In this document: positions 46,151 to 58,456 of the stretch, piece by piece
How positions within the stretch are numbered: the first letter of the stretch is position 1
How the letters are laid out: every line of letters starts with the position of its first letter
Source: an uncultured Phocaeicola sp.
Lineage (GTDB): Bacteria > Bacteroidota > Bacteroidia > Bacteroidales > Bacteroidaceae
Direction: 5' to 3'
Length of the DNA stretch: 64,000 nucleotides
Assembly (NCBI GenBank): GCA_944320845.1
Contig: CALUJA010000011.1
Span: forward strand, 1 to 64,000
Notes under the pieces: model-generated
The model's database searches: none
Told to the model about the DNA's origin: nothing
What the model saw: the letters and a program-made list of their open reading frames with translations, nothing else
Position numbers and translations under genes: made by a program

Positions 46151-47275
46151 TCAGAATACATACTGCAACCGCAGCTGCGCCAGGAAGAAATCTCCCTGAT
46201 AAAAAGCATTGCAATGCTTGCCTGTCCACACGTAACTGCCGTTCAGCTTCACGGCGATATACGGGTTCAGGTAAAAATTCACGCCCAAAGAAAGGTCTTT
46301 CTCTTCTCCTCCCATGATTCCGGCCTGCCCGTCGTTCAGATTGGTATAATCAAACCGCGCCACCAACTCGACGGCCTGCGGCGTGAGCGGCCTTCCGGGA
46401 ATGCCATACATGGCATCGTATGCAAATCCGCTCCCTTTCAACAAGAATCCGCCCTGTATATACCCGCCTTGCGGACGGTATGCCCGCTTTCCCGCCACGC
46501 GGTTCCGGCGGTCGAAATGATATTCCGCCTGCAGCATGAAGCGGGGAGCCATGTAAAGTGCCTCAACCAATCCCTTTACTTCCGTACCCATATCCGGAAT
46601 TTCAGCTTCCATCATCGGCTCCGGAAACATGGATGTCACTCCCGCACTGCTGACACTGCCCGACGGACTGCCTTCCGTGTTCACTTCCTTCGTGCGGAAA
46701 GAGAACGCTCCTCCTATATGAACCAGACGATTGTCAGCACCCTGCCAGCGCCAGACGGCGCGCGAGGTGGAGACAAAGGCGTTCCGCTGGCCGCTTCCCA
46801 ATTTGTTTATGTCATTATGGGTATATACCCCCGTGGCGAGATACCAATGCTTGTCGTAGAAATGATAGGTCACTCCCAGCTTCCGGCTGTCGGCAAACGC
46901 CAGTACGGAAGCGGCCGACTGATGGAAACGCATGTCAACCGTGCTGATGAGCATATCCATCGAATAAGGTTCATAGGCATTTCCGAACGAAAGCACGCTG
47001 TTTCTGAAATGATAGTTCAGCAATAAATCCTTGATGGCTACTTTTCCCCCGCCCAGACCAATGTCGGCCTTCAGCTCAAGACGCTTGTAAGTGGCCTTAA
47101 ACCCTACCCGAAAATCTTCCAGACGATAATATCCCTGCGTGCTTTCCTTGCCGTAACCCGACAGAGACGCATCAAGCAGGGCGCGCGAACGGAACTTAAC
47201 CTTCAAAGTCTCTTGGGCCTGTACGCCCATTACACCAAGCAATGCCGCCAGGATGCCGGTCAACAGTTTTTTCAT
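46151..47275 (-). CDS. Outer-membrane porin, OprO/OprP-like
   Basis: 374 residues with a signal peptide (KKLLTGILAALLGVMGVQAQ). Alternating hydrophobic/polar strands with aromatic belts (FRVGFKATYKRLELKADIGL, IKDLLLNYHFRNSVLSFGNA, LGVTYHFYDKHWYLATGVY) and an aromatic C-terminus (LRLQYVF) indicate a beta-barrel of the phosphate-selective porin type. It starts inside the stop of etfA (ATGA overlap, 4 bases), so it is co-translated with the ETF/amine dehydrogenase operon. I infer uptake of the anionic substrate of that pathway across the outer membrane. Confidence 0.8.
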   Translation of the reverse strand: MKKLLTGILAALLGVMGVQAQETLKVKFRSRALLDASLSGYGKESTQGYYRLEDFRVGFKATYKRLELKADIGLGGGKVAIKDLLLNYHFRNSVLSFGNAYEPYSMDMLISTVDMRFHQSAASVLAFADSRKLGVTYHFYDKHWYLATGVYTHNDINKLGSGQRNAFVSTSRAVWRWQGADNRLVHIGGAFSFRTKEVNTEGSPSGSVSSAGVTSMFPEPMMEAEIPDMGTEVKGLVEALYMAPRFMLQAEYHFDRRNRVAGKRAYRPQGGYIQGGFLLKGSGFAYDAMYGIPGRPLTPQAVELVARFDYTNLNDGQAGIMGGEEKDLSLGVNFYLNPYIAVKLNGSYVWTGKHCNAFYQGDFFLAQLRLQYVF

Positions 47276-48474
47276 AAGCCGCCAGCCGTTAGTTGGGAAA
47301 GTGCTTCTTCGGCCGACACCGCCCATCCGTAATCCGCTATGCCGAAGATAGGAGCCGTCCGGTCCGGATTTATCGCTATAATCTTCTTTGCTCCGGCAAG
47401 CGCCGCCGTATGCTGAATCTGTCCGCTTATGCCGATTGCTATATACAAATCGGGCGAAATGGCATGCCCCGTCTGCCCTACCTGCATGTGAGCGTCAATC
47501 AAGCCGGCTTCCACCGCTGCGCGCGAGCCTGCCACCACGGCTCCAAACCGTGCAGCCCATTCACGGATGCGGTTTACCATATCCAGGCTTTTCACTCCCC
47601 GGCCTATTCCGACGACAATCCGGCTGTTTTCCAGCGAATCGCCGCAGGAAGCCTCGACGGTTTCCCTAATCAGGCGTATCCGCCTGTCGCTGCTCACCTT
47701 CGATACATCGGCATAAACGACCTCTCCGCTCCGTGAATAATCCGGTTCGGACGCCTTCATAACCCCCGGGCGTACGGACGCCATTTGCGGACGATGCGCA
47801 GGAGTCTTGATTGTGGCCATAAGATTACCTCCGAATGCCGGGCGTATCTGAAGCAGAAGTCCCGTATCCGAATCAATGTCCAACTCGGTGCAATCCGCCG
47901 TCAGTCCTGTCTGAAGCAAGGCCGCCATACGTGCAGACAACCCGCGTCCCCGCGGCGTAGCTCCCACAAGCAGTATCTCAGGACGGCATTCCCTTACCAG
48001 CCTCACCAGTTCACAGGCATAGTTCTCTTCGATAAACGCAGCCAGCGACTCATGCTCGACTATCCGGACCCGTCTTGCGCCATAGGCTATCAGCTCGGAT
48101 GCACAGGCAGAAACATTGCCGCCTATCAGCACCGCCTCCACATCATGATGAAGCTTTTCCGACAGCACCACGGCCTTGCCCAAAAGTTCCCTTGCAACCG
48201 GTGCCAGACAGCCGTCCTCCACCTCTGCAAGCACCCATATCCCCTTCGTCTCTTCCTGCGGAACCGCCGTTTTTCCTGTTTCCGGCTCACTTATCTGCAG
48301 CGCCCCGGCCGGACAGGCCTGCACACAACTTCCGCAAAGACGGCAGGCGTAAGAATCTATCTCAGGAACATCAGCAAACTTTATGGCATTATAGGCACAC
48401 GTATCTGCGCACAATCCGCATCCCGTGCACCGCTCTTTCAGCACCCGAAGTGCAAATGAAGTATCATTGTTCAT
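47272..48474 (-). CDS. etfA: Electron transfer flavoprotein alpha subunit with N-terminal ferredoxin domain
   Basis: 400 residues. Residues 1-65 are a 2[4Fe-4S] ferredoxin module (CTGCGLCADTC and CRLCGSCVQAC). The EtfA N-domain follows, then the FAD-binding C-domain with GIGRGVKSLDMVNRI, GSRAAVEAGLI, MQVGQTGHAISPDLYIAIG and AINPDRTAPIFGIADYG. The ferredoxin-fused form is known from anaerobes, including bifurcating systems such as lactate dehydrogenase/Etf. Here the neighbours are an amine-type flavin dehydrogenase and EtfB (13 bases upstream), so it probably receives electrons from that enzyme and may pass them to or from ferredoxin. Confidence 0.93.
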   Translation of the reverse strand: MNNDTSFALRVLKERCTGCGLCADTCAYNAIKFADVPEIDSYACRLCGSCVQACPAGALQISEPETGKTAVPQEETKGIWVLAEVEDGCLAPVARELLGKAVVLSEKLHHDVEAVLIGGNVSACASELIAYGARRVRIVEHESLAAFIEENYACELVRLVRECRPEILLVGATPRGRGLSARMAALLQTGLTADCTELDIDSDTGLLLQIRPAFGGNLMATIKTPAHRPQMASVRPGVMKASEPDYSRSGEVVYADVSKVSSDRRIRLIRETVEASCGDSLENSRIVVGIGRGVKSLDMVNRIREWAARFGAVVAGSRAAVEAGLIDAHMQVGQTGHAISPDLYIAIGISGQIQHTAALAGAKKIIAINPDRTAPIFGIADYGWAVSAEEALSQLTAGGL

Positions 48475-48487
48475 ATATTATCAACTT

Positions 48488-49267
48488 TTAGCTCAAAGAA
48501 TCGACACATTTATCAATAATCTCGGCAACGGAACTGCCGGAGGAAAGCCACCGAATCTCCTTTGCCGTCTGAGGAACATCCGTAGAAACCACCTTCGTAG
48601 GCGAGGCATACAGCCCGACAACCTTGCCATCCAGCTGCAAGTCGCCTTCATCCCACCGGATGACTTCTTGCCGCTGCGCCCGTCTCCATCCAGACAGGGT
48701 GGGACAAGCCAGCTCCCCGTTTTCCCGACTTACCATAACCGCACACGGAGTCTCAATCTCCACACGCTGCAACAGGCTTCCCGCCTTCTTGTCTGCAACA
48801 AGCCAATTTCCCTTCACTTCGTGGATGGAAGACAGACAGGTCACTTGAGGAATATCCAACTGTCCGGCCACTTCCGGGCCTACTTGAGCCGTGTCGCCGT
48901 CGATAGCCATACGCCCAAAAAACAAGATATCATAGTCTCCTATCCTGCGCACCGCCGAAGCCAGCACCAAGCTTGTGCACCATGTGTCACTGCCGGCAAA
49001 AGCCGGAGACGAGAGCAAAACGGCGCGGTCAGCCCCATACTGAAGCGCTTCACGCAGTACCGCCTCCGCTGAAGCCGGACCCATGCTGACGGCCACCACT
49101 TCCGCCCCGGTGTTCTGCCGCAGGTCAAGCGCAGCCTGCAGCGCATGCAAGTCGTCCGGATTGGTCTGTGTAAGTGCAGACGAACGTTTCAAAGTTTTGG
49201 TTACAGGGTCAATCTCCACCCTTGTAGAGCGAGGAACCTGCTTGAGAAACACGATATAACGTTTCAT
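48488..49267 (-). CDS. etfB: Electron transfer flavoprotein beta subunit
   Basis: 259 residues. Family segments: YIVFLKQVPRSTRVEIDP, NPDDLHALQAALDL, AVSMGPASAEAVLREALQYG and GRMAIDGDTAQVGPEVAGQL. The DGDTAQVGP loop is the form I recall from bifurcating, NAD-interacting ETFs; AMP-type ETFs read differently there. It lies 61 bases after the flavin dehydrogenase gene and 13 bases before etfA, in one operon. Confidence 0.93.
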   Translation of the reverse strand: MKRYIVFLKQVPRSTRVEIDPVTKTLKRSSALTQTNPDDLHALQAALDLRQNTGAEVVAVSMGPASAEAVLREALQYGADRAVLLSSPAFAGSDTWCTSLVLASAVRRIGDYDILFFGRMAIDGDTAQVGPEVAGQLDIPQVTCLSSIHEVKGNWLVADKKAGSLLQRVEIETPCAVMVSRENGELACPTLSGWRRAQRQEVIRWDEGDLQLDGKVVGLYASPTKVVSTDVPQTAKEIRWLSSGSSVAEIIDKCVDSLS

Positions 49268-49328
49268 AATCCTATCATCACTTTTTATTTACTTGACAAA
49301 AAAACTTTTCTGAGCTGTAAAAAATCAT

Positions 49329-50564
49329 TTATCCCCCTTTCTTGTTCGAACGGGCATCGGCACAACGCCGCTGAAACTCGGGCGAAAACGGATTGACCTC
49401 GCCGAAACGTTCCGGAGCGAACAGTTCGGGACTGACAAACGGACGCTCTCCCGTAATCATTTCCGCCGCCAAACGCCCCATTCCACCTCCGGCGGCCACG
49501 CCGCCACCGCAGCATCCCGTCACAGTGAACAGACCTTCATAGCGTTTGACCGGGCCGATAACAAACATGGCATCGGGAACGTAACAGGAAGGCCCTGCCA
49601 TATAATGGGCAATCGGGAGGTCGTCAATATCATGCAGGTAACGTTTCAGCAGCGGAGCGCATTCATCCAAGACTGTCCACTTTGCAGCCTGATTGAAATC
49701 AAAGTCTTCCAGCCGTTCGGTCAGAGCAGACGGGTCGAATGCCTGACAACAACTTTCGCGCAAGCCTATAATCAAGGCTCCGACATCGGAGCGGGTGAAG
49801 GCACGAGCGTCCGGAATGACGGTAAACGGGTGTCCGGCGGGAAAACGCTCCGAATCTATCGCCGTAATCCAGAAATGGCTGCGCACCGGAGTAAAGGGCA
49901 AACCCACGTTCAGAGGGCGCATCAGAAGATTGGCCCATGCTCCGGCCGCGTTCACGACCAAAGAAGCCGACAGCACTTCCCCATTAAAGAGTCTTACCCC
50001 GCTGACTTGCCTGCCGTTTTCCACCAGAATCTCCTTCACCTTACAGTTCGGACGGAGTTCAACTCCCAGTTTCGATGCAGCCCTGGCATAGCCGGAGCAA
50101 AGCAGGGCCGAATCAATGAAAGCGTCGGTAGGCATATACAAGGCCACATCCACCGCCTCGGCATCAATCCACGGGAGCAGCTTCCGGGTCTGCTCGCGGC
50201 TGATGCGCTCATTGGGTATGCCAAAACGTGTGGCTGCCTCCTCCAAAGCCTCCAGTCCCTTCAGCGAAACCTCCGAAGAGGCTATCGTAACGCTTCCGCA
50301 CTGCTGCAATTCAAGCGATTCTCCCAACAAGTCTTCCATTTCCGCTATGCAGTCGTAAGTTTCCTGCACAATCTCCATCAGTCCCGGCTTGGTACGGGCG
50401 CGTGTCAGGAGGCAGGCCGCACGCGCCGATGCCTGCGAAGCAATCTCATTTCCATCGAGAAGCAAAATCCTTCCGGCCTTTCTCTTGGCCAGCTGATAGG
50501 CCGTGGCACATCCCAAAAGCCCGCCTCCTATTATAATAATGTCGAATCTGTTTTCCATTTTCAT
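49329..50564 (-). CDS. DAO-family FAD-dependent amine dehydrogenase/oxidase
   Basis: 411 residues. N-terminal FAD-binding GxGxxG is DIIIIGGGLLGCATAYQLA, followed by SQASARAACLLTRART and, in the middle, VVNAAGAWANLL; the C-terminus has GCCGGGVAAGGGMGRLAAEM. This is the sarcosine/glycine oxidase and dimethylglycine dehydrogenase superfamily, which oxidises C-N bonds. Adjacent etfBA suggest ETF as acceptor rather than O2, as in sarcosine and dimethylglycine dehydrogenases. With phnWX nearby, an N-substituted aminoethylphosphonate or the free amine is a candidate substrate; an amino acid is the alternative. It starts 6 bases after the transporter gene. Confidence 0.85.
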   Translation of the reverse strand: MKMENRFDIIIIGGGLLGCATAYQLAKRKAGRILLLDGNEIASQASARAACLLTRARTKPGLMEIVQETYDCIAEMEDLLGESLELQQCGSVTIASSEVSLKGLEALEEAATRFGIPNERISREQTRKLLPWIDAEAVDVALYMPTDAFIDSALLCSGYARAASKLGVELRPNCKVKEILVENGRQVSGVRLFNGEVLSASLVVNAAGAWANLLMRPLNVGLPFTPVRSHFWITAIDSERFPAGHPFTVIPDARAFTRSDVGALIIGLRESCCQAFDPSALTERLEDFDFNQAAKWTVLDECAPLLKRYLHDIDDLPIAHYMAGPSCYVPDAMFVIGPVKRYEGLFTVTGCCGGGVAAGGGMGRLAAEMITGERPFVSPELFAPERFGEVNPFSPEFQRRCADARSNKKGG

Positions 50565-50569
50565 AAGGA

Positions 50570-51880
50570 TTATATCGTATTATATTGAACATAAGTCTGG
50601 TTTGCCTCCTTCATCCGGTACATCTTGTTGTATTTCCGGTAAATCAAGATAGCCGCAACCGTAAAGAAAACCGTGCATACCGCCCCTACCGCACAGGCAA
50701 TATGGTTGAACAAATCAAACCATTCCAGATTTATGCCAAACAGTTCTTTGGTTGAGAGCAGGGTAACCGTCCCCATATAGCCGATGAAATCAATCATTGC
50801 AATAAAGAATCCTACATTTCCCTTGATACGGAAGCAAGCGATGAAGCGGTCGAAAAAGATGGTCTGGAATGTAAGATAAGCGATATACAAGGACAAACTC
50901 TCTACAAACAGCCAGGTAACCGGTTCCAAATCAAGGGTCTTATAATGATAAGATACGTATGTCATGGTCAGACATCCGGCAATCACCAGTGTCATCAACC
51001 ATAGCAAAGCCTTGATATTGCTGCGGAAAAAGACAAACAAGGCAAAGAGTCCCAGGATTATCAAAGTAACAATCGTGTCGATTCGAGCGAACATCCACGA
51101 CGACTGGTTACTCATATCGAGAATGTTTACAAGGAAATCCTCCTTGATATCACGCAGCACAAGCAACATGAAGTTACCGACAAACAGCAGCGAGAGTATG
51201 GGGGCATACTTCATAAACAAGGCCTTTCTTCCCTTACCGTCCAACACAACGCGCTCATTGCGCAGGGCAATGTCCTCGGCCGTAGGATGAGGAAGCCTTT
51301 TCAACATGTATCCCATGAAGACCAGAAGGGGCAAAGCAAATCCGCCTATAAGCGCCGGCATCCAGAACTGGTCAACGTGCAGCTCGTTCATCGCAAACAA
51401 ACCGAAGCTTTTCGCCACTCCCGAACTGAAAACCATGCTTACTCCAAGCAGGCTTGCCAAGATGTCGGTCACCTTCCGCCCTTCAATAAAACTGAATATC
51501 ACGCCCCACATGCATCCCAAAGAGAGCCCGTTGACAAACATCGCTATCACATTATAGGGAGTATCCAGCAAACCGAAGCCTATCAAGGCAGCCTCTGCAA
51601 GGATGGCCGAACCAACGAAGAAGCGGAAACGGTTTTCCTTCTTCAGCTCCGAGATAATCTTGATTCCGAAAAACTTCGCAATCACGTATCCCAATATCTG
51701 AATGGTGGTTACCGCCACTTTATAGTCGCTTCCCAAAAAGGAAAGCCCCTCGAACGATGCGGCAGTATACGGCTTGCGCAAGGCATAGACCAGCGAATAA
51801 GAGAGCAAGGCAGCCCCTCCCGCCCAGAGAATCAAAAGCAAATCTGATAATTTCTTGTTTTTTTCCATATTCCGTAACAT
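50570..51880 (-). CDS. DUF5690-type MFS transporter, copy 1
   Basis: 436 residues (432 if started at the inner MEKNKK) with about 12 membrane helices. The motifs SLVYALRKPYTAASFEGL, ILGYVIAKFFGIKIISEL, NGLSLGCMWGVIFSFIEGRK and LRDIKEDFLV match what I recall of the Bacteroidetes DUF5690 family, distantly related to GlpT/UhpT-like organophosphate carriers. A close paralogue lies at 54936. It heads the ETF operon, with a -7 box 26 bases upstream (51906-51913), and is divergent from an HTH regulator. A phosphonate or amine-phosphonate substrate is inferred from context. Confidence 0.85.
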   Translation of the reverse strand: MLRNMEKNKKLSDLLLILWAGGAALLSYSLVYALRKPYTAASFEGLSFLGSDYKVAVTTIQILGYVIAKFFGIKIISELKKENRFRFFVGSAILAEAALIGFGLLDTPYNVIAMFVNGLSLGCMWGVIFSFIEGRKVTDILASLLGVSMVFSSGVAKSFGLFAMNELHVDQFWMPALIGGFALPLLVFMGYMLKRLPHPTAEDIALRNERVVLDGKGRKALFMKYAPILSLLFVGNFMLLVLRDIKEDFLVNILDMSNQSSWMFARIDTIVTLIILGLFALFVFFRSNIKALLWLMTLVIAGCLTMTYVSYHYKTLDLEPVTWLFVESLSLYIAYLTFQTIFFDRFIACFRIKGNVGFFIAMIDFIGYMGTVTLLSTKELFGINLEWFDLFNHIACAVGAVCTVFFTVAAILIYRKYNKMYRMKEANQTYVQYNTI

Positions 51881-51905
51881 TAAGTAAGATTCAACTTTAC
51901 GGCGG

Positions 51906-51913
51906 CAAAGCTA
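51906..51913 (-). promoter_or_regulatory. -7 box of the transporter-dehydrogenase-ETF operon
   Basis: TAGCTTTG on the minus strand, perfect to TAnnTTTG, 26 bases before the transporter start. It would drive 50570 down to 46151. Confidence 0.6.
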
Positions 51914-52003
51914 CAACAGGCGGGTATCTGAAAGAATTAATTTATTATGTATTATGAAGCGTCTGCCTGCGCCTTTTATAATGTCACATTTATTACAAGA
52001 TTA

Positions 52004-52021
52004 TGTTGCAGAAATGCAACA
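52004..52021. promoter_or_regulatory. Palindrome, candidate operator of regulator 1
   Basis: Perfect inverted repeat TGTTGCA-N4-TGCAACA in the divergent region between the copy 1 transporter and regulator 1, 30 bases upstream of the regulator -7 box. The symmetry and position suit a dimeric HTH protein. The word TTGTAACAT (52034-52042) follows and recurs in the other module (56472-56480). Confidence 0.45.
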
Positions 52022-52050
52022 AATGAAACAGTATTGTAACATACAAATCG

Positions 52051-52058
52051 TATTTTTG
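52051..52058 (+). promoter_or_regulatory. -7 box for regulator 1
   Basis: TATTTTTG, perfect to TAnnTTTG, 18 bases before the ATG at 52077. It lies inside the longer open frame and so decides the start. TTGTAACAT sits just upstream, where a repressor or activator would contact the promoter. Confidence 0.65.
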
Positions 52059-52076
52059 TCCCAAACAAAAGTTATT

Positions 52077-52967
52077 ATGGACAGATTGGTATCTCTTTAT
52101 GAACGAATGAAAAAACTCCGCGAATCGGGAGTAAGGATGAAAGACATTTCAGAAGAAACGGATATCGCCTCCAGCGTGCTGTCATCGCTGTATTCGTCCG
52201 TGCTTCCCATGTATGTAAACCTGCTTTCAAACGGAGAGGAAAAAGAAAAGGCGTTGGACAAATCGCTCCAGCAAGTGAACAACGTTTCCAAAAGAAAGCT
52301 CTTGGGATGTCTGGACTCTTTGTACGAAAAGGTTCATGCCATCGAGCCGCGGCTTGTCAACACGAAAAACGGCGGACGCCCTTTCCTTGACGACATCGAA
52401 AAGGAGGCAATCAACTATCTGCCCAATGCCGGCGTGTATACGGGCCTGTATCTGGCATACAGCTCCTCGTCATTTTCCGACGGACTGAAGGTGGAACCCT
52501 ACATGATAGCCTCTATCAACGACGGCGAGACCATGCCCAAGGTCTACTCGCAAAGCATGTCGGGAGACTATTACACGGGCATCGGACTGTTTTCACCCTT
52601 TCAGATAGGCTATCTGATGTTCAACGAACAGAAGCGGCTGCAGCTGGCGCTGAAGGTGGTATACCTCCAACTGCCCATTATCGAATATCCAAACTTGCTG
52701 AAGGGCATTTATCTCACGCACGATTATAACCGGAATCCGATTGCCCGCAGGGTCATCTTCATCCGCCAAGGCGATGAAATCCCTCTGGATGAATTTGCAA
52801 AGATGAGAACGGAAGTGATTCCGAAAGAAAAGCTTACGGAAGAACAGGAAACCTTCTACAACTATACCTGCGAAACAGGCGACGTAATCAAAAGCATGAT
52901 GCTTGTTTCACCAGACAAGAATCCTGACAACCTGACACGGGAAAAAGAGCTTCTGAAGCTTTTATAA
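52077..52967 (+). CDS. HTH transcriptional regulator with unclassified ligand domain, copy 1
   Basis: 296 residues. Residues about 12-40 form a helix-turn-helix (LRESGVRMKDISEETDIASS then VLSSLYSSVLP). The remaining ~230 residues match no sensor family I know but are shared with the second copy at 56545: NNVSKRKLLG, GLKVEPYMIA, LMFNEQKRLQLAL, GIYLTHDYNRNPIARRVIFI and a C-terminal YNYTCETGDVIKSM. A bound ligand is inferred. The start at MDRLVSLYERM fits copy 2 and the promoter box. It is divergent from the copy 1 transporter, whose operon it likely controls. Confidence 0.75.
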   Translation: MDRLVSLYERMKKLRESGVRMKDISEETDIASSVLSSLYSSVLPMYVNLLSNGEEKEKALDKSLQQVNNVSKRKLLGCLDSLYEKVHAIEPRLVNTKNGGRPFLDDIEKEAINYLPNAGVYTGLYLAYSSSSFSDGLKVEPYMIASINDGETMPKVYSQSMSGDYYTGIGLFSPFQIGYLMFNEQKRLQLALKVVYLQLPIIEYPNLLKGIYLTHDYNRNPIARRVIFIRQGDEIPLDEFAKMRTEVIPKEKLTEEQETFYNYTCETGDVIKSMMLVSPDKNPDNLTREKELLKLL

Positions 52968-52976
52968 GACAAAAAT

Positions 52977-53007
52977 CCCTGCCACAGCCATAACAACCGC
53001 AGCAGGG
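52977..53007. terminator. Weak hairpin between regulator 1 and phnW
   Basis: CCCTGC (52977-52982) and GCAGGG (53002-53007) pair over 6 bp with a 19-base loop; A runs on the left give U residues on the minus strand. Convergent genes flank it. Confidence 0.4.
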
Positions 53008-53034
53008 AGGAAGCGTAAAAAAACAATATGCCTG

Positions 53035-54117
53035 TCAAAGTTCCTTTATCGCTTCTACAAGTCTGACAAAATCAGCAGGATATACATCTCCGATATTTCC
53101 GATGCGGAACGTATCTGCCTGAGAAATCTTTCCCGGATAAATCACAAAACCTTTAGCCTTCAGCTTCTGGTAGAAATCATTGAAGTCAAAATCTGCGTTC
53201 GGATAATAAAACGAAGTGATGACGGGAGACTGTTCTTCGTCTTTCAGCAGAGTCTCGAATCCGATAGAGCGCATGCCGTCTACCAAGGTGCGGTGATTTT
53301 CACAGTAGCGGGCATGGCGTGCCTCGATTCCCCCTTCAGCCGAAAGTTCCTTCAAGGCCTGCATAAAGGCGCGCACTACATGCGTAGGTGAAGTAAAGCG
53401 CCATTTGCCGTGTCCCTCCTCCATCGTTTTCCACTGGTCATAGATATCAAGCGACAGCGAGCGGGCAACTCCCTTGCACTGTTCCAGCAGCGAACGGCGG
53501 GCGATAATGAATCCGAATCCCGGAACACCCTGAATACATTTGTTTGCACTGCTTATCAAAAAGTCGATTCCAAGCTGCGCCATGTCGATAGGCACACCGC
53601 CAAAGCTGCTCATCGCATCGACAATCAACACCTTTCCATGCTTCTTCACCACTTCTGCAACAGCCTGCAAAGGATTCAGCACCCCCGTGGTCGTTTCGCA
53701 ATGAACGACTGAAACATGGGTTACCTCCGGATGCTCCGTCAGGTAGGCATCTATCATCTGCGGAGAAACCTGCTGCGTCTCTTCAAACTTCATTACGAAA
53801 TGGTTGATTCCATAATAGTCGGCAATCACTCCCATACGTTTTCCGTAAGCTCCGTTGGCGGCAACCAGCAGATTGTCTTCCGGCCGAACCACAGAGCCCA
53901 GCATAGCTTCCACGCAGAAAGTGCCGCTGCCCTGCATCAATACGGCGGTATAATCGTCGGGGCGACTGCTTGCAAGCTGCACAAGCTGCTTGCGGATAAC
54001 CTCTACAATACCTTCATTATAATCTTTATCCCACGTACACCAGTCGCTCATCATAGCTTCCTTTACAGTCTCGCTCGTGGTCAGCGGACCTGGAGTCAGT
54101 AACAAATAAGGTCTCAT
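53035..54117 (-). CDS. phnW: 2-aminoethylphosphonate:pyruvate transaminase
   Basis: 360-residue PLP enzyme. It moves the amino group of 2-aminoethylphosphonate to pyruvate, giving phosphonoacetaldehyde and alanine. Signatures: [20 protein letters not shown] with [53 protein letters not shown] and the PLP lysine in [29 protein letters not shown] closes the domain. It follows phnX by 27 bases in the same operon. No pepM or ppd (phosphonate synthesis) is present, so the direction is catabolic. Confidence 0.95.
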
Positions 54118-54144
54118 ATTATATAATAAATGTGTTTGATTGTT

Positions 54145-54939
54145 TCATTCATTGTTCATTCTCTCGTTGATAGCCTCTATCAAAGCAGGCAGTTCCTCGA
54201 TGGAGTCGACTACATAATGTGCTCCGGCCGCGTACATGCGGTATCTTACCTCCATCATTCTCCGCTTCAGCTCCTCGGCTGGCAGCGCTTCGACCTCTTC
54301 TTCCGTCAGTCCCAACTCGTTGCTGCCAAGAATTACTCCTACCGTCCAGACCCCGGCATTCACTCCCTCGCGGATGTCGGATATGGTATCGCCGTATTTC
54401 AATACTGAGAAACGGGAAGGAACAGCGAGGTCGCACATGTTTTTATATATCATATACGGATAAGGACGTCCGGCCGGAAGCCCGTCGGAAGTAACGCAAT
54501 TGTCCACGCGATACCCTTGCTCCTCAGCTGCGGGTATGACAATATCCATCATTTCACGGGTATAACCGGTGGTCGAGCCTATCTTAATGCCCTGTTCACG
54601 CAGGTGGTCAATCGTTTCCACCACCTTCAAAATCGGGCCTGAATAGCTGCGCAAGGTAGAAAACAGCAGCCGCTGGAACTCCGCATAACAAGACTGCACA
54701 TCGTTTTCATTGTAATCCCGTCCGTATTTCGCGCGAAACTCGTCTGACACACGCTCAATGCGGAACAGAGCCCGTATCTCCTCTATTTTTGTCAGGCCCA
54801 TGTGAGCGCGCGTCTCCGCGGCCGTCACTTCAAGACCAAGAGTTCTGAAACTTTCGATAAATGCTGACACCGGTGCAAAGCAACCATAATCAACGGCAGT
54901 ACCTGCCCAATCCAAGATAACACATTCAATTTTTTTCAT
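54145..54939 (-). CDS. phnX: Phosphonoacetaldehyde hydrolase (phosphonatase)
   Basis: 264-residue HAD enzyme that splits phosphonoacetaldehyde to acetaldehyde and phosphate. The nucleophile Asp is in CVILDWAGTAVDYG. The Schiff-base lysine lies in MGLTKIEEIRALF, as in the known enzyme. Later motifs are IKIGSTTGYTREMMDIV, CVTSDGLPAGRPYPYMIYKN and VLKYGDTISDIREGVNAG. The start MKKIECVILDW (54939) matches the family and overlaps the transporter stop by 4 bases (ATGA), so the two are coupled. It is second in the operon transporter-phnX-phnW. Confidence 0.96.
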   Translation of the reverse strand: MKKIECVILDWAGTAVDYGCFAPVSAFIESFRTLGLEVTAAETRAHMGLTKIEEIRALFRIERVSDEFRAKYGRDYNENDVQSCYAEFQRLLFSTLRSYSGPILKVVETIDHLREQGIKIGSTTGYTREMMDIVIPAAEEQGYRVDNCVTSDGLPAGRPYPYMIYKNMCDLAVPSRFSVLKYGDTISDIREGVNAGVWTVGVILGSNELGLTEEEVEALPAEELKRRMMEVRYRMYAAGAHYVVDSIEELPALIEAINERMNNE

Positions 54940-56312
54940 ATAGCAGTAGTTGTTGTTAAATACATATTGTCTTTCGCGGTTTCTTCCGCAGGTTCCGTTT
55001 CGGTTTCCTCCTGCTTTCCCGGCAGCGGCTCGGGCTTGCGGTTGCGGGCATGAATCATATAAATCAGCGAGCCTACGAACGCCGCGCAGCATGCCACGCC
55101 TATATAGAGGCTCATCTGGTTGTAGAATGACGCCCAGTCAATATGAGAAGCGTAAAACTCCTTGAAAAGCAGCAAGGCCAACGTACCCAAATACCCGACA
55201 AAGTCTATCGTTATGATGAAGAACCCTACATTCCCCCTTATCTTGAAGCAGGCAATGAACCGTTCGAAAAAGATGGTCTGGAAACTCAGATAGGCCATAT
55301 CCAGGCAAAGGCTCTGCATGAACAGCCATACGGTGGTAGGAAGCCCGATTCTTCCGGCATCCGCCCCAAGGAATGCAAGGGCTCCCATTCCGCAGGTGGA
55401 AAGAACCAGAAGGATGCACAGCACACGCAAGTGGTTATATGTAGATGCCAGCAAAGCAAAGACAGCAAGCAAAACCAATGTGGCTATGGAGTCAATCTGG
55501 GCAAATGCCCATGAAGAGATGGTATCGACATCGATGATGCACACGATGAAGTCTTCTTTGATGTCGCGCTGCACGGTAAGCAGCAGGTTTGCCCCGAAAA
55601 GCATCAGAAGCAGCGGCATGAAACGGCGGAACAGTGCCCATCGCTGGTGTCCGTTGAGCGTGACACGCACCGAGCGCGACGCGATATCGGCGGCGGTAGG
55701 ACGGGGGAAACGGGTCATCATCCACCCTGTAAAGCAAAGAAGAGGAAAGGCAGCCGCGCCAATCAAGGCGGGCATCCAGAATTCGCTCACGTGAAGATGG
55801 TTGAGCGCATAAAGCCCCAAAGATTTTGCCACGCCCGAACTGAGCGCCATGCTCACGCCCATAATGCTGGCAAGTATATCCGTCGTCCGCCGGCCCTCGA
55901 GAAAACTGAATATCACCCCCCACATACATCCCAGTGACAGGCCGTTAAAAAACAGCGCCACGATATTGTAAGGAATCGGCAAAAGGCCGAAAGCAACCAG
56001 CGAGACTTCAGACAGAGCGGCCGAACCGATGATAAACTTCAAGCGCCCTTCGGGACGCAATTCGGATATATACTTGATGCCCAAAAGCTTCGCACATACA
56101 TATCCCAGCAACTGGATAATGCTGACAGCAATCTTATAATCCATTCCGCAGACCTGCAGCCCCTCGAATTCGGCCGCCGTGAAAGGCTTGCGCAAGGCAT
56201 ATACCAGCGAATAGGAAAGAAGAGCCGTACCTCCGGCCCACAAGACAAAAAGCCAGTCGGGCATCGCGTGCTTCTCTTCCGCATTCGGCAATATATTCAC
56301 TGAATCTTTCAT
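54936..56312 (-). CDS. DUF5690-type MFS transporter, copy 2
   Basis: 458 residues with about 12 membrane helices. It is a clear paralogue of copy 1: SLVYALRKPFTAAEFEGL, LLGYVCAKLLGIKYISEL, NGLSLGCMWGVIFSFLEGRR, LASIMGVSMALSSGVAKSLG and QRDIKEDFIVCIIDVD. The C-terminal tail is longer and acidic (KQEETETEPAEET). Being fused in one operon with phnX and phnW by a 4-base overlap makes 2-aminoethylphosphonate or phosphonoacetaldehyde the likely cargo. The start at MKDSVNIL (56312) is chosen because a perfect -7 box (56341-56348) lies in the longer frame. Confidence 0.85.
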   Translation of the reverse strand: MKDSVNILPNAEEKHAMPDWLFVLWAGGTALLSYSLVYALRKPFTAAEFEGLQVCGMDYKIAVSIIQLLGYVCAKLLGIKYISELRPEGRLKFIIGSAALSEVSLVAFGLLPIPYNIVALFFNGLSLGCMWGVIFSFLEGRRTTDILASIMGVSMALSSGVAKSLGLYALNHLHVSEFWMPALIGAAAFPLLCFTGWMMTRFPRPTAADIASRSVRVTLNGHQRWALFRRFMPLLLMLFGANLLLTVQRDIKEDFIVCIIDVDTISSWAFAQIDSIATLVLLAVFALLASTYNHLRVLCILLVLSTCGMGALAFLGADAGRIGLPTTVWLFMQSLCLDMAYLSFQTIFFERFIACFKIRGNVGFFIITIDFVGYLGTLALLLFKEFYASHIDWASFYNQMSLYIGVACCAAFVGSLIYMIHARNRKPEPLPGKQEETETEPAEETAKDNMYLTTTTAI

Positions 56313-56340
56313 AACCAATCTTCTGCTTTTGATTTCGCTG

Positions 56341-56348
56341 CAAATGTA
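56341..56348 (-). promoter_or_regulatory. -7 box of the transporter-phnX-phnW operon
   Basis: TACATTTG on the minus strand, perfect to TAnnTTTG, 28 bases before the ATG at 56312. Confidence 0.6.
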
Positions 56349-56471
56349 AGGGCTTCCGCAAAACGGGAAAATGAATAAAGCAGGAATCATAAAGGCGTAA
56401 CAATTCAGAAACATTCATGAAACAGCATTTTTACAGCAAAGAAACAGGTATTAAACCCGATTGAAACGACT

Positions 56472-56480
56472 TTGTAACAT
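56472..56480. promoter_or_regulatory. Shared word TTGTAACAT, possible operator half-site
   Basis: The same 9 bases occur at 52034-52042 in the other transporter/regulator gap; GTAACA also recurs at the copy 1 transporter start and at 56397. A pair of 8-base inverted words, CATTCATG (56412-56419) and CATGAATG (56478-56485), lies around it. These may be contacts for the paralogous regulators. Confidence 0.35.
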
Positions 56481-56488
56481 GAATGATT

Positions 56489-56519
56489 TTTGAATAATAA
56501 AGAATTATGAGTAACTTCG
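56489..56519 (+). promoter_or_regulatory. Promoter of regulator 2
   Basis: -33 element TTTG (56489-56492), spacer of 19 bases, then TAACTTCG (56512-56519), one mismatch from TAnnTTTG. The spacing is the Bacteroidetes optimum. The ATG is 26 bases downstream at 56545. Confidence 0.55.
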
Positions 56520-56544
56520 CCCACGAACGACACACTTTACATCT

Positions 56545-57438
56545 ATGACGGAAGAACTGAAAGACATATACGAACGGATGACATTCCTGAGGCAAAAGGG
56601 AATCAAGATGAAGGAAATGGCGGAAAAGTCGGGATTCTCGCCCAGTGTCTTGTCGGCCATCTACTCGACCGTACTGCCTGCCTACTTCAAAAACCGGGAG
56701 GAAAAAGGCATGAATGAAGATGAAGCCCTCAACAATGCCCTGGTATGGGTAAACAATGTCTCAAGAAAAAAGCTGCTTGGCTCGCTTGCCAGCCTGAAAG
56801 AGTCGCTGTTTTCCATGGACTTCAACATCAAGTCTGCTCCGGAGGATGCCCGCAATCCCTTTCTTGCGCAACTTGAAAGCAACATGCAGGAAGCTGTGGG
56901 GAGGATTATCAACTTCAGCGGAATCTATCTGAGCTACAGCATATCGTCCGGAAGCCGCAGCCTGAAAGTGGAGCCGTACCTTATCGCCCCCGCCGAAAAC
57001 GGACATTATGTGGAGGTGGGCCATAACAATGCATACGGAGCAACCCACTGGGGAACGGTTTTCATGAACGGATTCAACCATCTGAACCTGATGTTCAACG
57101 AAAACCAGCCGCCACAGCTGTCGCTTTTCCATATCTGCCTGAAACTTCCCATGTATGACCATCCTCCTTTCCTGCGCGGACTGTACATGTGCTTTGACTA
57201 TAACTACAATCCGGTGGCGCGCCGCATCCTTTTCGTCAAGCATTCCGACAGCATTGCCCGCGATGAATTCCTGCAACTGAAGGGGGAACTGAAGGCTCCC
57301 GAAATGCTGAACGAAAAAGAAAAGGCTTATTATGACTATACCTGCGGGGCGGAAGACATCATCCGCATGTGCAACATCCCCTCGCCGCAGATGACCGAAG
57401 AGGATTTGGCGGTCGAGAAAAAGATTCTTTCCTTATGA
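56545..57438 (+). CDS. HTH transcriptional regulator with unclassified ligand domain, copy 2
   Basis: 297 residues, paralogue of copy 1 over its whole length. HTH: LRQKGIKMKEMAEKSGFSPS then VLSAIYSTVLP. Shared C-domain words: NNVSRKKLLGSL, LKVEPYLIAP, NLMFNENQPPQLSLF, GLYMCFDYNYNPVARRILFV, YYDYTCGAEDIIRM. It is divergent from the transporter-phnX-phnW operon, as copy 1 is from the ETF operon, so each likely reads a ligand linked to its own operon. It is convergent with the dehydrogenase-like gene, 26 bases away. Confidence 0.75.
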   Translation: MTEELKDIYERMTFLRQKGIKMKEMAEKSGFSPSVLSAIYSTVLPAYFKNREEKGMNEDEALNNALVWVNNVSRKKLLGSLASLKESLFSMDFNIKSAPEDARNPFLAQLESNMQEAVGRIINFSGIYLSYSISSGSRSLKVEPYLIAPAENGHYVEVGHNNAYGATHWGTVFMNGFNHLNLMFNENQPPQLSLFHICLKLPMYDHPPFLRGLYMCFDYNYNPVARRILFVKHSDSIARDEFLQLKGELKAPEMLNEKEKAYYDYTCGAEDIIRMCNIPSPQMTEEDLAVEKKILSL

Positions 57439-57464: not shown

Positions 57465-58367
57465 TCATTTTCCGCCGGACAGAAAATCCAGCAGGTTCTG
57501 CAACGCCTTCCTGTTCAGCCTTTCCACACTTTGTTCCGACTTGCCTGATATATACGGCGTATACAGGACATTTTCTATTCCGGAAAGTCTGTCCGCCAGA
57601 TTTCCCATAGCCGTCGCATCACACAGATACCAGCTTTGGGGATTTTCATGCAGCCATTCTTCAAGCGCGCCTACTTGAAACGTAAGCCCGACCGAGGTGT
57701 TCACCAGGATTTTACGGTTGCCAAACAGCGCAAACTCCTCCTTTCCCAGCAGAAAGGTATTGCGCGGCAGGCAGGTGCATACGATGTCACACTCTTTCAG
57801 CAGGATGTGCAAAGGTTTGTATGCATATCCTCTCGCGTCTCCGTCAGGCTTCCGGCTACGGCTGTAATACGAAACCGAGGCTCCGAACAGCCGAAACGCG
57901 TCCGCCACCATGCCTCCCGTCTTGCCGAGGCCGACAATACCCACTTTCTGTCCGGTCAGCTCAGTGGGCTGCTCCTTCCATCTCCGCCCGCCGAAGCCGT
58001 GAAGCAGCCTTACCAGCTCGGATATGACATATTCCACCACGCCCTCGTCGCCGTAATCCCTTACACCCTTTACGGCGATTCCTCTCCTTTCGGCTTCCTG
58101 CAAGTCCACATTGCAGCTGCGCGGGTCGTAAACCGAGCAATACATGCCTATATATTTCAGGTTCCGGCATGCATCCATCACCTCTTTCCCTACCGGCGTG
58201 CGGAAAGACACCAGCAGACAGTCGGCATCCCCTATGCGTCTTTTCACTTCTTCCACTTCCGAAGGAAAATCGTGATAGACCACCACTTCCTTTCCCCACT
58301 TGCAAAGCTCACGTTCATACGCTCCGGTCAACAGCGTTTCGTCGACCGCCACTATTTTTTCAAACAT
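57465..58367 (-). CDS. D-2-hydroxyacid dehydrogenase-like protein lacking usual catalytic residues
   Basis: 300 residues with the two-domain fold of NAD-dependent D-2-hydroxyacid dehydrogenases. The nucleotide-binding motif GQKVGIVGLGKTGGMVADAF is intact (about 145-165). However, where the family has Arg in a NxARG motif this reads LVNTSVGLTFQVGAL; the region of the catalytic Glu reads LCDATAMGN; and the catalytic His of TPH is Tyr in YTPYISGKSE. So it is probably not an ordinary dehydrogenase. The start at MFEKIVAVDETLL (58367) follows a perfect -7 box (58399-58406). Not clearly part of the phosphonate region. Confidence 0.75.
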   Translation of the reverse strand: MFEKIVAVDETLLTGAYERELCKWGKEVVVYHDFPSEVEEVKRRIGDADCLLVSFRTPVGKEVMDACRNLKYIGMYCSVYDPRSCNVDLQEAERRGIAVKGVRDYGDEGVVEYVISELVRLLHGFGGRRWKEQPTELTGQKVGIVGLGKTGGMVADAFRLFGASVSYYSRSRKPDGDARGYAYKPLHILLKECDIVCTCLPRNTFLLGKEEFALFGNRKILVNTSVGLTFQVGALEEWLHENPQSWYLCDATAMGNLADRLSGIENVLYTPYISGKSEQSVERLNRKALQNLLDFLSGGK

Positions 58368-58398
58368 ACTCCTTTTTCTTTTAACGAAATTAGCCGGA

Positions 58399-58406
58399 CA
58401 AATATA
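58399..58406 (-). promoter_or_regulatory. -7 box for the dehydrogenase-like gene
   Basis: TATATTTG on the minus strand, perfect to TAnnTTTG, 32 bases before the ATG at 58367. The divergent queA box starts 23 bases away, so the two promoters overlap. Confidence 0.6.
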
Positions 58407-58429
58407 AGGATTTATCGACAAGAAAGTCT

Positions 58430-58437
58430 TACTTTTG
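58430..58437 (+). promoter_or_regulatory. -7 box for queA
   Basis: TACTTTTG, perfect to TAnnTTTG, 19 bases before the ATG at 58457. Confidence 0.6.
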
Positions 58438-58456
58438 CACGACAAATCCACAAGAC

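Follow-up and report, generated by a model that had tools for sequence, protein, structure and literature searches.

The 64,000-nucleotide window analysed here (positions 1 to 64,000 of contig CALUJA010000011.1, from the genome of an uncultured Phocaeicola sp., referred to as G000; all coordinates are positions in this window) contains, between 46151 and 57438, two minus-strand operons with one divergent gene each, which probably together provide two linked routes for the degradation of aminophosphonates, one of them coupled to an electron transfer flavoprotein (ETF). The first operon is T2-phnX-phnW, with R2 as its divergent gene; the second is T1-flavoenzyme-etfB-etfA-porin, with R1. Both routes would lead to phosphonoacetaldehyde. 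Free 2-aminoethylphosphonate (2-AEP or AEP) would be imported by T2 and transaminated by PhnW; N-methyl-AEP (or a close N-alkyl AEP), which would not be a substrate of PhnW, would enter by the porin and T1 and be converted by the flavoenzyme, a predicted relative of the dehydrogenase PbfC, to phosphonoacetaldehyde and methylamine. PhnX would then complete both routes, yielding phosphate and acetaldehyde. The electrons taken up by the flavoenzyme would pass to the dedicated ETF encoded 3' of it and not to O2; this ETF may work in the confurcating direction, like lactate dehydrogenase-Etf, combining the amine electrons with those of reduced ferredoxin in the reduction of NAD+. That the ETF is the partner of an aminophosphonate dehydrogenase is, judged from sequence, probable.

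It is clear that the genes named in the original prediction are all present. PhnW (2-AEP:pyruvate transaminase, 53035..54117; TIGR02326, 592 bits with a cut-off of 401) and PhnX (phosphonoacetaldehyde hydrolase, 54145..54939; TIGR01422, 333 bits with a cut-off of 220) both score over curated cut-offs, and their genes share an operon with that of T2, a DUF5690 protein (54936..56414; PF18943, 417 bits). The listed phnX reading frame starts too early, at 55092, since the TIGR01422 match begins at residue 55 of it; with the ATG at 54939 as start there is a 4-base overlap (ATGA) with the T2 stop and a gap of 27 bases between phnX and phnW, the junctions that had been claimed. In the second operon T1, also a DUF5690 protein (50570..51880; PF18943, 429 bits), is followed after 5 bases by the flavoenzyme, an enzyme of the DAO family (49329..50564; PF01266, 220 bits). 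A further 61 bases lead to etfB (48488..49267; Pfam ETF), and 13 more to etfA (47272..48474; Pfam ETF, ETF_alpha and Fer4), whose product has an N-terminal ferredoxin domain with eight cysteines for two [4Fe-4S] sites. Last comes the gene for an outer-membrane protein of the Porin O/P family (46151..47275; PF07396, 84.9 bits); if the likely start at 47275 is correct, it overlaps the etfA stop by 4 bases.

The nature of the flavoenzyme is suggested by its likeness to a DAO-family gene on plasmid pAB510a of Azospirillum sp. B510. This was its best match in a search of a plasmid collection (40.8%; the next record reached 28.5% among the best 40 of 337 records); the two proteins align over their full length (41% identity over 412 aligned positions, about 238-239 bits) and have a C-terminal CA-ARS segment in common. 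The B510 gene stands in the order phnW-phnX-DAO-pbfA, with the last gene over the PbfA cut-off, and it is by strain and by this neighbourhood that we take it as PbfC. According to PMC10590968 the PhnWX pathway of B510 is enriched by PbfA and PbfC, and PbfC converts N-methyl-AEP to phosphonoacetaldehyde, prefers it about 400-fold over AEP and makes little use of O2; FAD oxidoreductases for N-methyl-AEP in phosphonate clusters had been named as known in the original prediction. Pairwise scores group together (231-302 bits) the window protein, the B510 protein and a PbfC-like protein from a genome of the same class and another family (G654, locus L109), where the gene lies between phnW and a DUF5690 gene. 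The window flavoenzyme scores 274 bits with the G654 protein and at most 135 bits with the other DAO enzymes compared, apart from B510 and its Bacteroidales kin; the B510 protein scores 302 bits with G654, 259 with the flavoenzyme of Millionella and at most 137 with six others compared. Outside the group, at 177 bits or less, fall two proteins resembling dimethylglycine dehydrogenase, one further FAD oxidoreductase, and SolA, DadA and PuuB.

Curated families did not capture the flavoenzyme. It lies under every cut-off among its 25 best NCBIfam families, the best being N-methyl-L-tryptophan oxidase (100.6 bits, cut-off 257), and two candidate memberships were rejected, namely PbfD (TIGR03364, 52 bits with a cut-off of 285) and the putative aminophosphonate oxidoreductases of TIGR03329 (34.5 bits with a cut-off of 633). 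PbfA was likewise rejected as a component of the window genome, where the best score is 157 bits and the cut-off 525. The flavoenzyme (in a Bacteroidota-wide search at E 1e-70, present in 3 of 395 genomes, including the window genome and G013) is best described as PbfC-like and is proposed to be an FAD-dependent N-methyl-AEP dehydrogenase.

N-methyl-AEP is somewhat favoured as its main substrate. Of the two options in the original prediction, an N-substituted or a free aminophosphonate, the likeness to PbfC makes the former, as N-methyl-AEP, likelier and free AEP less so. If the substrate were instead free AEP, or some other aminophosphonate such as a different N-alkyl or a hydroxylated AEP, a T1 and R1 separate from T2 and R2 would make equal sense, as they would for any related compound, and PbfD2 is reported to be just 4-fold slower with plain AEP than with N-methyl-AEP (PMC10590968). 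We nevertheless consider this unlikely, given the roughly 400-fold discrimination by PbfC and the presence of PhnW, which handles AEP, beside PhnX in all 20 of the related genomes with phnX described below.

The association between flavoenzyme and ETF is conserved. A scan of genome contigs with the flavoenzyme alignment and two conserved peptide patterns gave 21 relative loci, all in other Bacteroidales genomes, including Phocaeicola plebeius (DSM 17135), P. coprophilus (DSM 18228), P. faecium, P. intestinalis, Paraprevotella clara (YIT 11840), Paraprevotella xylaniphila (YIT 11841), Xylanibacter rarus and Millionella massiliensis (Marseille-P3215T). These organisms are known as gut anaerobes. 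In every locus that continues far enough, etfB lies directly 3' of the flavoenzyme (20/20; the contig of L073 ends just after the flavoenzyme) and etfA then follows (19/19; L071 ends earlier). Of the 19 loci that extend beyond etfA, 13 have a porin counterpart after it, and in 17 of the 21 the gene immediately upstream of the flavoenzyme is T1. Because the flavoenzyme-etfBA order is kept in 21 other loci, a chance arrangement is implausible.

Furthermore, the flavoenzyme occurs where phosphonate genes occur. Of 121 sampled genomes of the family, 5 have the flavoenzyme (E 1e-30) and 12 have phnX over its cut-off, and the identical 12 have DUF5690 over its cut-off; all 5 flavoenzyme genomes fall among these 12 (p = 4e-6, with kinship ignored). 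The 7 phnX genomes that lack the flavoenzyme are as expected for an accessory route. In a sample of 393 genomes of the order there were 3 with the flavoenzyme (E 1e-45), all with phnX, and 12 with phnX, one of which (G284) is counted on a phnX with an in-frame TGA; two of the 3 flavoenzyme genomes are also in the family sample. The genomes of the 21 loci, 5 of which were also reached in the other searches (G013, G022, G069, G087 and G131), so that the counts are not independent, have phnX over the cut-off in 20 cases, and phnW adjoins it in 20 of 20. The genome survey for co-occurrence with phnWX that had been proposed thus gives 20/21, to be set against 12/121 and 12/393.

The two sets of genes may also be physically joined. 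In five of the 21 loci (L056, L057, L071, L072 and L073), as in the window, phnW and phnX lie in the same fetched stretch as the flavoenzyme. In Millionella massiliensis a single operon on one strand reads T-phnX-phnW-flavoenzyme-etfB-etfA, and at L073, from a further family, T-phnX-phnW-flavoenzyme is followed by the contig end. P. faecium has the arrangement of the window, and in P. plebeius the flavoenzyme module adjoins a convergent phnW-phnX-T2. In G022, T1 is the only DUF5690 gene, and phnX-phnW lies on another contig with an R gene and no transporter adjoining. Sharing an operon with phnW, as in Millionella, would also suit an enzyme that merely helps the PhnW route by reoxidising the alanine it makes to pyruvate, and models of D-amino acid dehydrogenases do match the flavoenzyme weakly. 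It scores just 61 bits with E. coli DadA, however, and its own proposed transporter and regulator, together with the likeness to PbfC, make such a role the least probable of those considered.

Several observations weigh against the explanation as a whole. The 5 flavoenzyme genomes of the family sample represent 2 genera; when either genus is taken by itself, a hand count shows no significant link to phnX. The two-pattern scan would miss flavoenzyme-ETF pairs of greater divergence, some of which may lack phnX. One genome with the cluster, a metagenome-assembled genome (MAG) of a lake Bacteroidales (L074), is without phnX over the cut-off. In 16 of the 21 loci phnW and phnX lie outside the fetched stretch. 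At L109, the one locus on which the wiring of a PbfC-like gene elsewhere in the phylum rests, the window etf genes have no match within 19 kb of that gene. Finally, an identity of 41% to PbfC does not fix the substrate, and a tree of DAO proteins that places flavoenzyme and PbfC on one side of a branch gives that branch a support of 37/0, with long saturated outgroup branches, and does not establish the two as one clade. As to the lake MAG, another of its contigs (L120, G528:C400) carries DUF5690-phnW (571 bits), a PbfA that at 655 bits exceeds its cut-off, and a gene resembling phnX that falls below the cut-offs of both phosphonatase families, a set that is probably a route for hydroxy-AEP.

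The distances to phnWX at those 16 loci would be natural if the flavoenzyme-ETF operon served some amine with no tie to phosphonates (sarcosine or dimethylglycine, for example) and were found with phnWX by chance or shared habitat; the best solved matches of the flavoenzyme are indeed dimethylglycine dehydrogenases (the top matches) and sarcosine oxidases. This is very improbable, since phnX is present in 20 of the 21 genomes and in only 12 of the 393 of the order sample, the genes share an operon order in two other families, and the T1 family is present in exactly those 12 family genomes that have phnX. Nor was a recurrent amine pathway seen beside the flavoenzyme-ETF operon in a rough count of neighbours at the 21 loci, a count which took the longest frames first, so that antisense frames displaced real genes (DAO was listed in 19/21, ETFB in 11/21), and can miss neighbours. 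Besides the known parts, the count turned up one frame resembling short-chain dehydrogenases, in 3 loci, and three frames that look antisense. The original prediction had named ETF operons regularly found without phnWX and beside another amine pathway as the finding that would count against it, and these results run the other way. Oxidation of an aminophosphonate by the flavoenzyme with the ETF taking the electrons, as first proposed, is thus well supported by the kinship with PbfC, the conserved flavoenzyme-etfBA order and the co-occurrence with phnX.

The ETF of this operon looks like one of the bifurcating type, on the basis of the β-FAD motif of EtfB and the two [4Fe-4S] clusters on EtfA. 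Among solved structures EtfA matches best with CarE, from the caffeyl-CoA reductase-Etf complex (281 bits), and the five best matches of EtfB are 4kpu, 6fah, 5ol2, 7koe and 7qh2, all of which we take to be bifurcating ETFs. The β-FAD motif, defined as in PMC9232219 and PMC12630350, is DGDTAQVGP in the window and is kept with its small glycine in 20 of 21 EtfB, the remaining one being cut by a contig end; the SPT motif is kept in all 20 uncut EtfB. The EtfA arginine segment RPAF-GN, whose arginine is equated with R205 of Acetobacterium woodii EtfA by way of the CarE alignment, and the eight cysteines are kept in 19 of 20 EtfA. In the exception, from a MAG (L062:11947-13079), the gene is split over two overlapping frames, by a sequencing error or by decay. 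In the lactate dehydrogenase-Etf complex of A. woodii (Ldh-EtfAB), changes in the β-FAD motif, SPT, the EtfA arginine or the cluster cysteines harm confurcation (PMC9232219).

The NAD motif of EtfB, RXFXG, gives a different picture, and one that tells against NAD+ as acceptor. Its phenylalanine and glycine are kept in all 21 EtfB, but its first residue, the NAD-site arginine that corresponds to R87 of A. woodii EtfB, is proline in 11 (including the window), arginine in 6, lysine in 2, valine in 1 and alanine in 1. When R87, F89 and G91 were replaced together in A. woodii, NADH:dichlorophenolindophenol (DCPIP) activity was lost (PMC9232219). An ETF of bifurcating ancestry may have changed its function and become a one-way carrier that works without NAD+ or confurcation and delivers two electrons to a further flavoprotein, to ferredoxin or to a quinone. 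The absence of the arginine from 15 of the 21 EtfB and the effect of the triple replacement favour such a carrier; the near-complete retention of the other motifs and of F and G argues against it, as does the absence from the genome of a match to ETF-quinone oxidoreductase (ETF-QO), and on balance we consider it rather unlikely. At E 0.001 the ETF-QO family (PF05187) was not matched anywhere in G000, which is 99.59% complete, in a search that was positive in 3 of 14 control genomes, and a path from the ETF to quinone through ETF-QO was rejected on that result. RnfC, the Rnf subunit searched, is present over its cut-off. Because of the marks of a bifurcating ETF, the presence of RnfC and the lack of an ETF-QO match, the electrons may reach NAD+ together with those of reduced ferredoxin. 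In our view confurcation is the single likeliest electron route, though its probability falls a little short of even owing to the changed NAD motif.

A second ETF pair, at G000:C22:31047-32437, has an EtfB with DGDTAQVGP and an intact RAFAG, and next to it is a frame that by eye resembles an acyl-CoA dehydrogenase. This rules out the flavoenzyme-linked ETF as the sole ETF of the cell and means, again unfavourably for the proposed scheme, that the flavoenzyme could have an acceptor besides the dedicated ETF.

Comparison with known ETF systems shows what would be new here. The Ldh of A. woodii belongs to a dehydrogenase family, and uses a substrate, unrelated to those of the flavoenzyme. In CarCDE (6FAH) the ETF is paired with a reductase of the acyl-CoA dehydrogenase type, which works in the reducing direction. 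CarCDE nevertheless provides the best solved match of the window EtfA, with its two clusters, and the second-best of EtfB. Ldh-EtfAB, as described in PMC9232219, has in common with the window a bifurcating-type ETF with a ferredoxin domain on EtfA that serves one flavin dehydrogenase, but it has one cluster on EtfA in place of two, and the NAD-motif arginine is often replaced here. The mitochondrial sarcosine and dimethylglycine dehydrogenases are, like the proposed enzyme, DAO-family amine dehydrogenases that donate electrons to ETF (PMC12630350); theirs, however, is a canonical ETF that passes them to ETF-QO, whereas here the ETF is of bifurcating type and the genome gave no match to ETF-QO. 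PbfC of B510 has in common with the flavoenzyme its family, its sequence and its clustering with phnW and phnX, and differs in that the flavoenzyme has etfB-etfA 3' of it and a DUF5690 transporter; the 17 kb surrounding the B510 gene gave no match to the window EtfA or EtfB.

Which electron acceptor PbfC uses physiologically is described as not clear in PMC10590968, where a quinone or a carrier protein is suggested, and the conserved flavoenzyme-etfBA order in anaerobes offers a possible answer. The same source reports that PbfC homologues are frequent in AEP clusters of the FCB group and that the route based on PbfD2 works under aerobic conditions only. PbfC homologues in this phylum group are thus already reported, and the link to an ETF is the new part: the words ETF and Bacteroid are absent from the main text of PMC10590968, as is the term "electron transfer" from PMC12366243. 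In agreement with the original prediction, which knew of no ETF-coupled phosphonate pathway in gut Bacteroidales, none was found in the literature searched, which excluded preprints and most subscription papers. Papers on AEP together with ETF did not, by title and opening of the abstract, describe such a pathway; the match for bifurcating ETFs with sarcosine dehydrogenase dealt with a canonical ETF; and among the matches listed for ETFs with confurcation or amine dehydrogenases, none concerned aminophosphonates by title. If the scheme is true, a confurcating amine dehydrogenase would be a new class of partner for bifurcating ETFs, and phosphonate catabolism would include an electron-confurcating step. 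It would also suggest a way for N-methyl aminophosphonates to be used in the gut, where free AEP has been reported on a flagellin glycan of one bacterium (PMC8861647).

The gene set appears to be portable. In G097, a relative from the genus of the window, the flanking sequences are kept with 89% and 90% nucleotide identity over 5.3 and 9.0 kb (msrA-TPR-helicase-porin on one side and phnW-phnX-T2-R2-2-hydroxyacid dehydrogenase-queA on the other) and lie only 25 bases apart (L053); the 5,695 bases between them in the window, 47277..52971, are absent. Since this segment is etfA (minus its last 5 bases) to R1, with etfB, the flavoenzyme and T1 between, the module has been gained or lost as a unit; the presence of the porin in G097 without the module fits a loss there. 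Bacteroidales of the gut thus appear to carry a portable set of genes for the O2-independent oxidation of N-methylated aminophosphonates. In its fullest form, with a DAO enzyme and a bifurcating-type ETF acting as a confurcating amine dehydrogenase on an N-methyl aminophosphonate, encoded by a five-gene module gained and lost among gut Bacteroidales, the proposal is a tentative one, and rather more likely to fail in some part than to hold throughout.

Roles are suggested as well for DUF5690 and for the R1/R2 family. T1 and T2 match each other's counterparts in relatives at about 51-60%, and R1 and R2 are 37% identical, so that the transporters and divergent genes of the two operons are related, as had been noted at the outset. 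DUF5690 genes also stand beside phnW in more distant Bacteroidota (L109:7212-8513 and L120:3403-4698), and we regard DUF5690 (PF18943), including T1, as a candidate aminophosphonate importer. T1 had no match to solved chains up to E = 0.1, and no mention of DUF5690 was found in the literature searched. A possible model by role is the GlpT-related AEP permease AepP, a major facilitator (PMC8316502). Two phnX-DUF5690 operons occur in one genome, G058 (L050 and L051); the transporter of the L050 copy is distant (about 36%), and that copy has no match to the window PhnW. R1 (51954..52967, plus strand, with its conserved part from near 52077) and R2 (56545..57438, plus strand) gave no hit in Pfam or NCBIfam within the limits set. 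R1 counterparts stand beside T1 in most loci and R2 counterparts beside phnWX operons; the family is conserved, and in many loci with phnWX or with flavoenzyme and ETF its genes diverge from those of the DUF5690 transporters. By this position, and a look by eye, R1 and R2 are candidate aminophosphonate-sensing regulators.

A terminator-like hairpin of 15 pairs and a T run, which is a consensus match only, lies 3' of phnW on the minus strand (52976..53008). Scans gave 15 promoter sites with 10.3 expected (standard deviation 3.7) and 20 terminators with 13.4 expected (standard deviation 3.8), and between 42000 and 60000 no Rfam family was over its gathering score. Adjoining R2, at 57465-58451, is a gene of the D-2-hydroxyacid dehydrogenase family (PF02826), which is present in the window and in G097 and is unmatched in P. 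faecium (L056) and in G013 (L047); PbfF, a phosphonate racemase, is also a member of PF02826 (PMC12366243).

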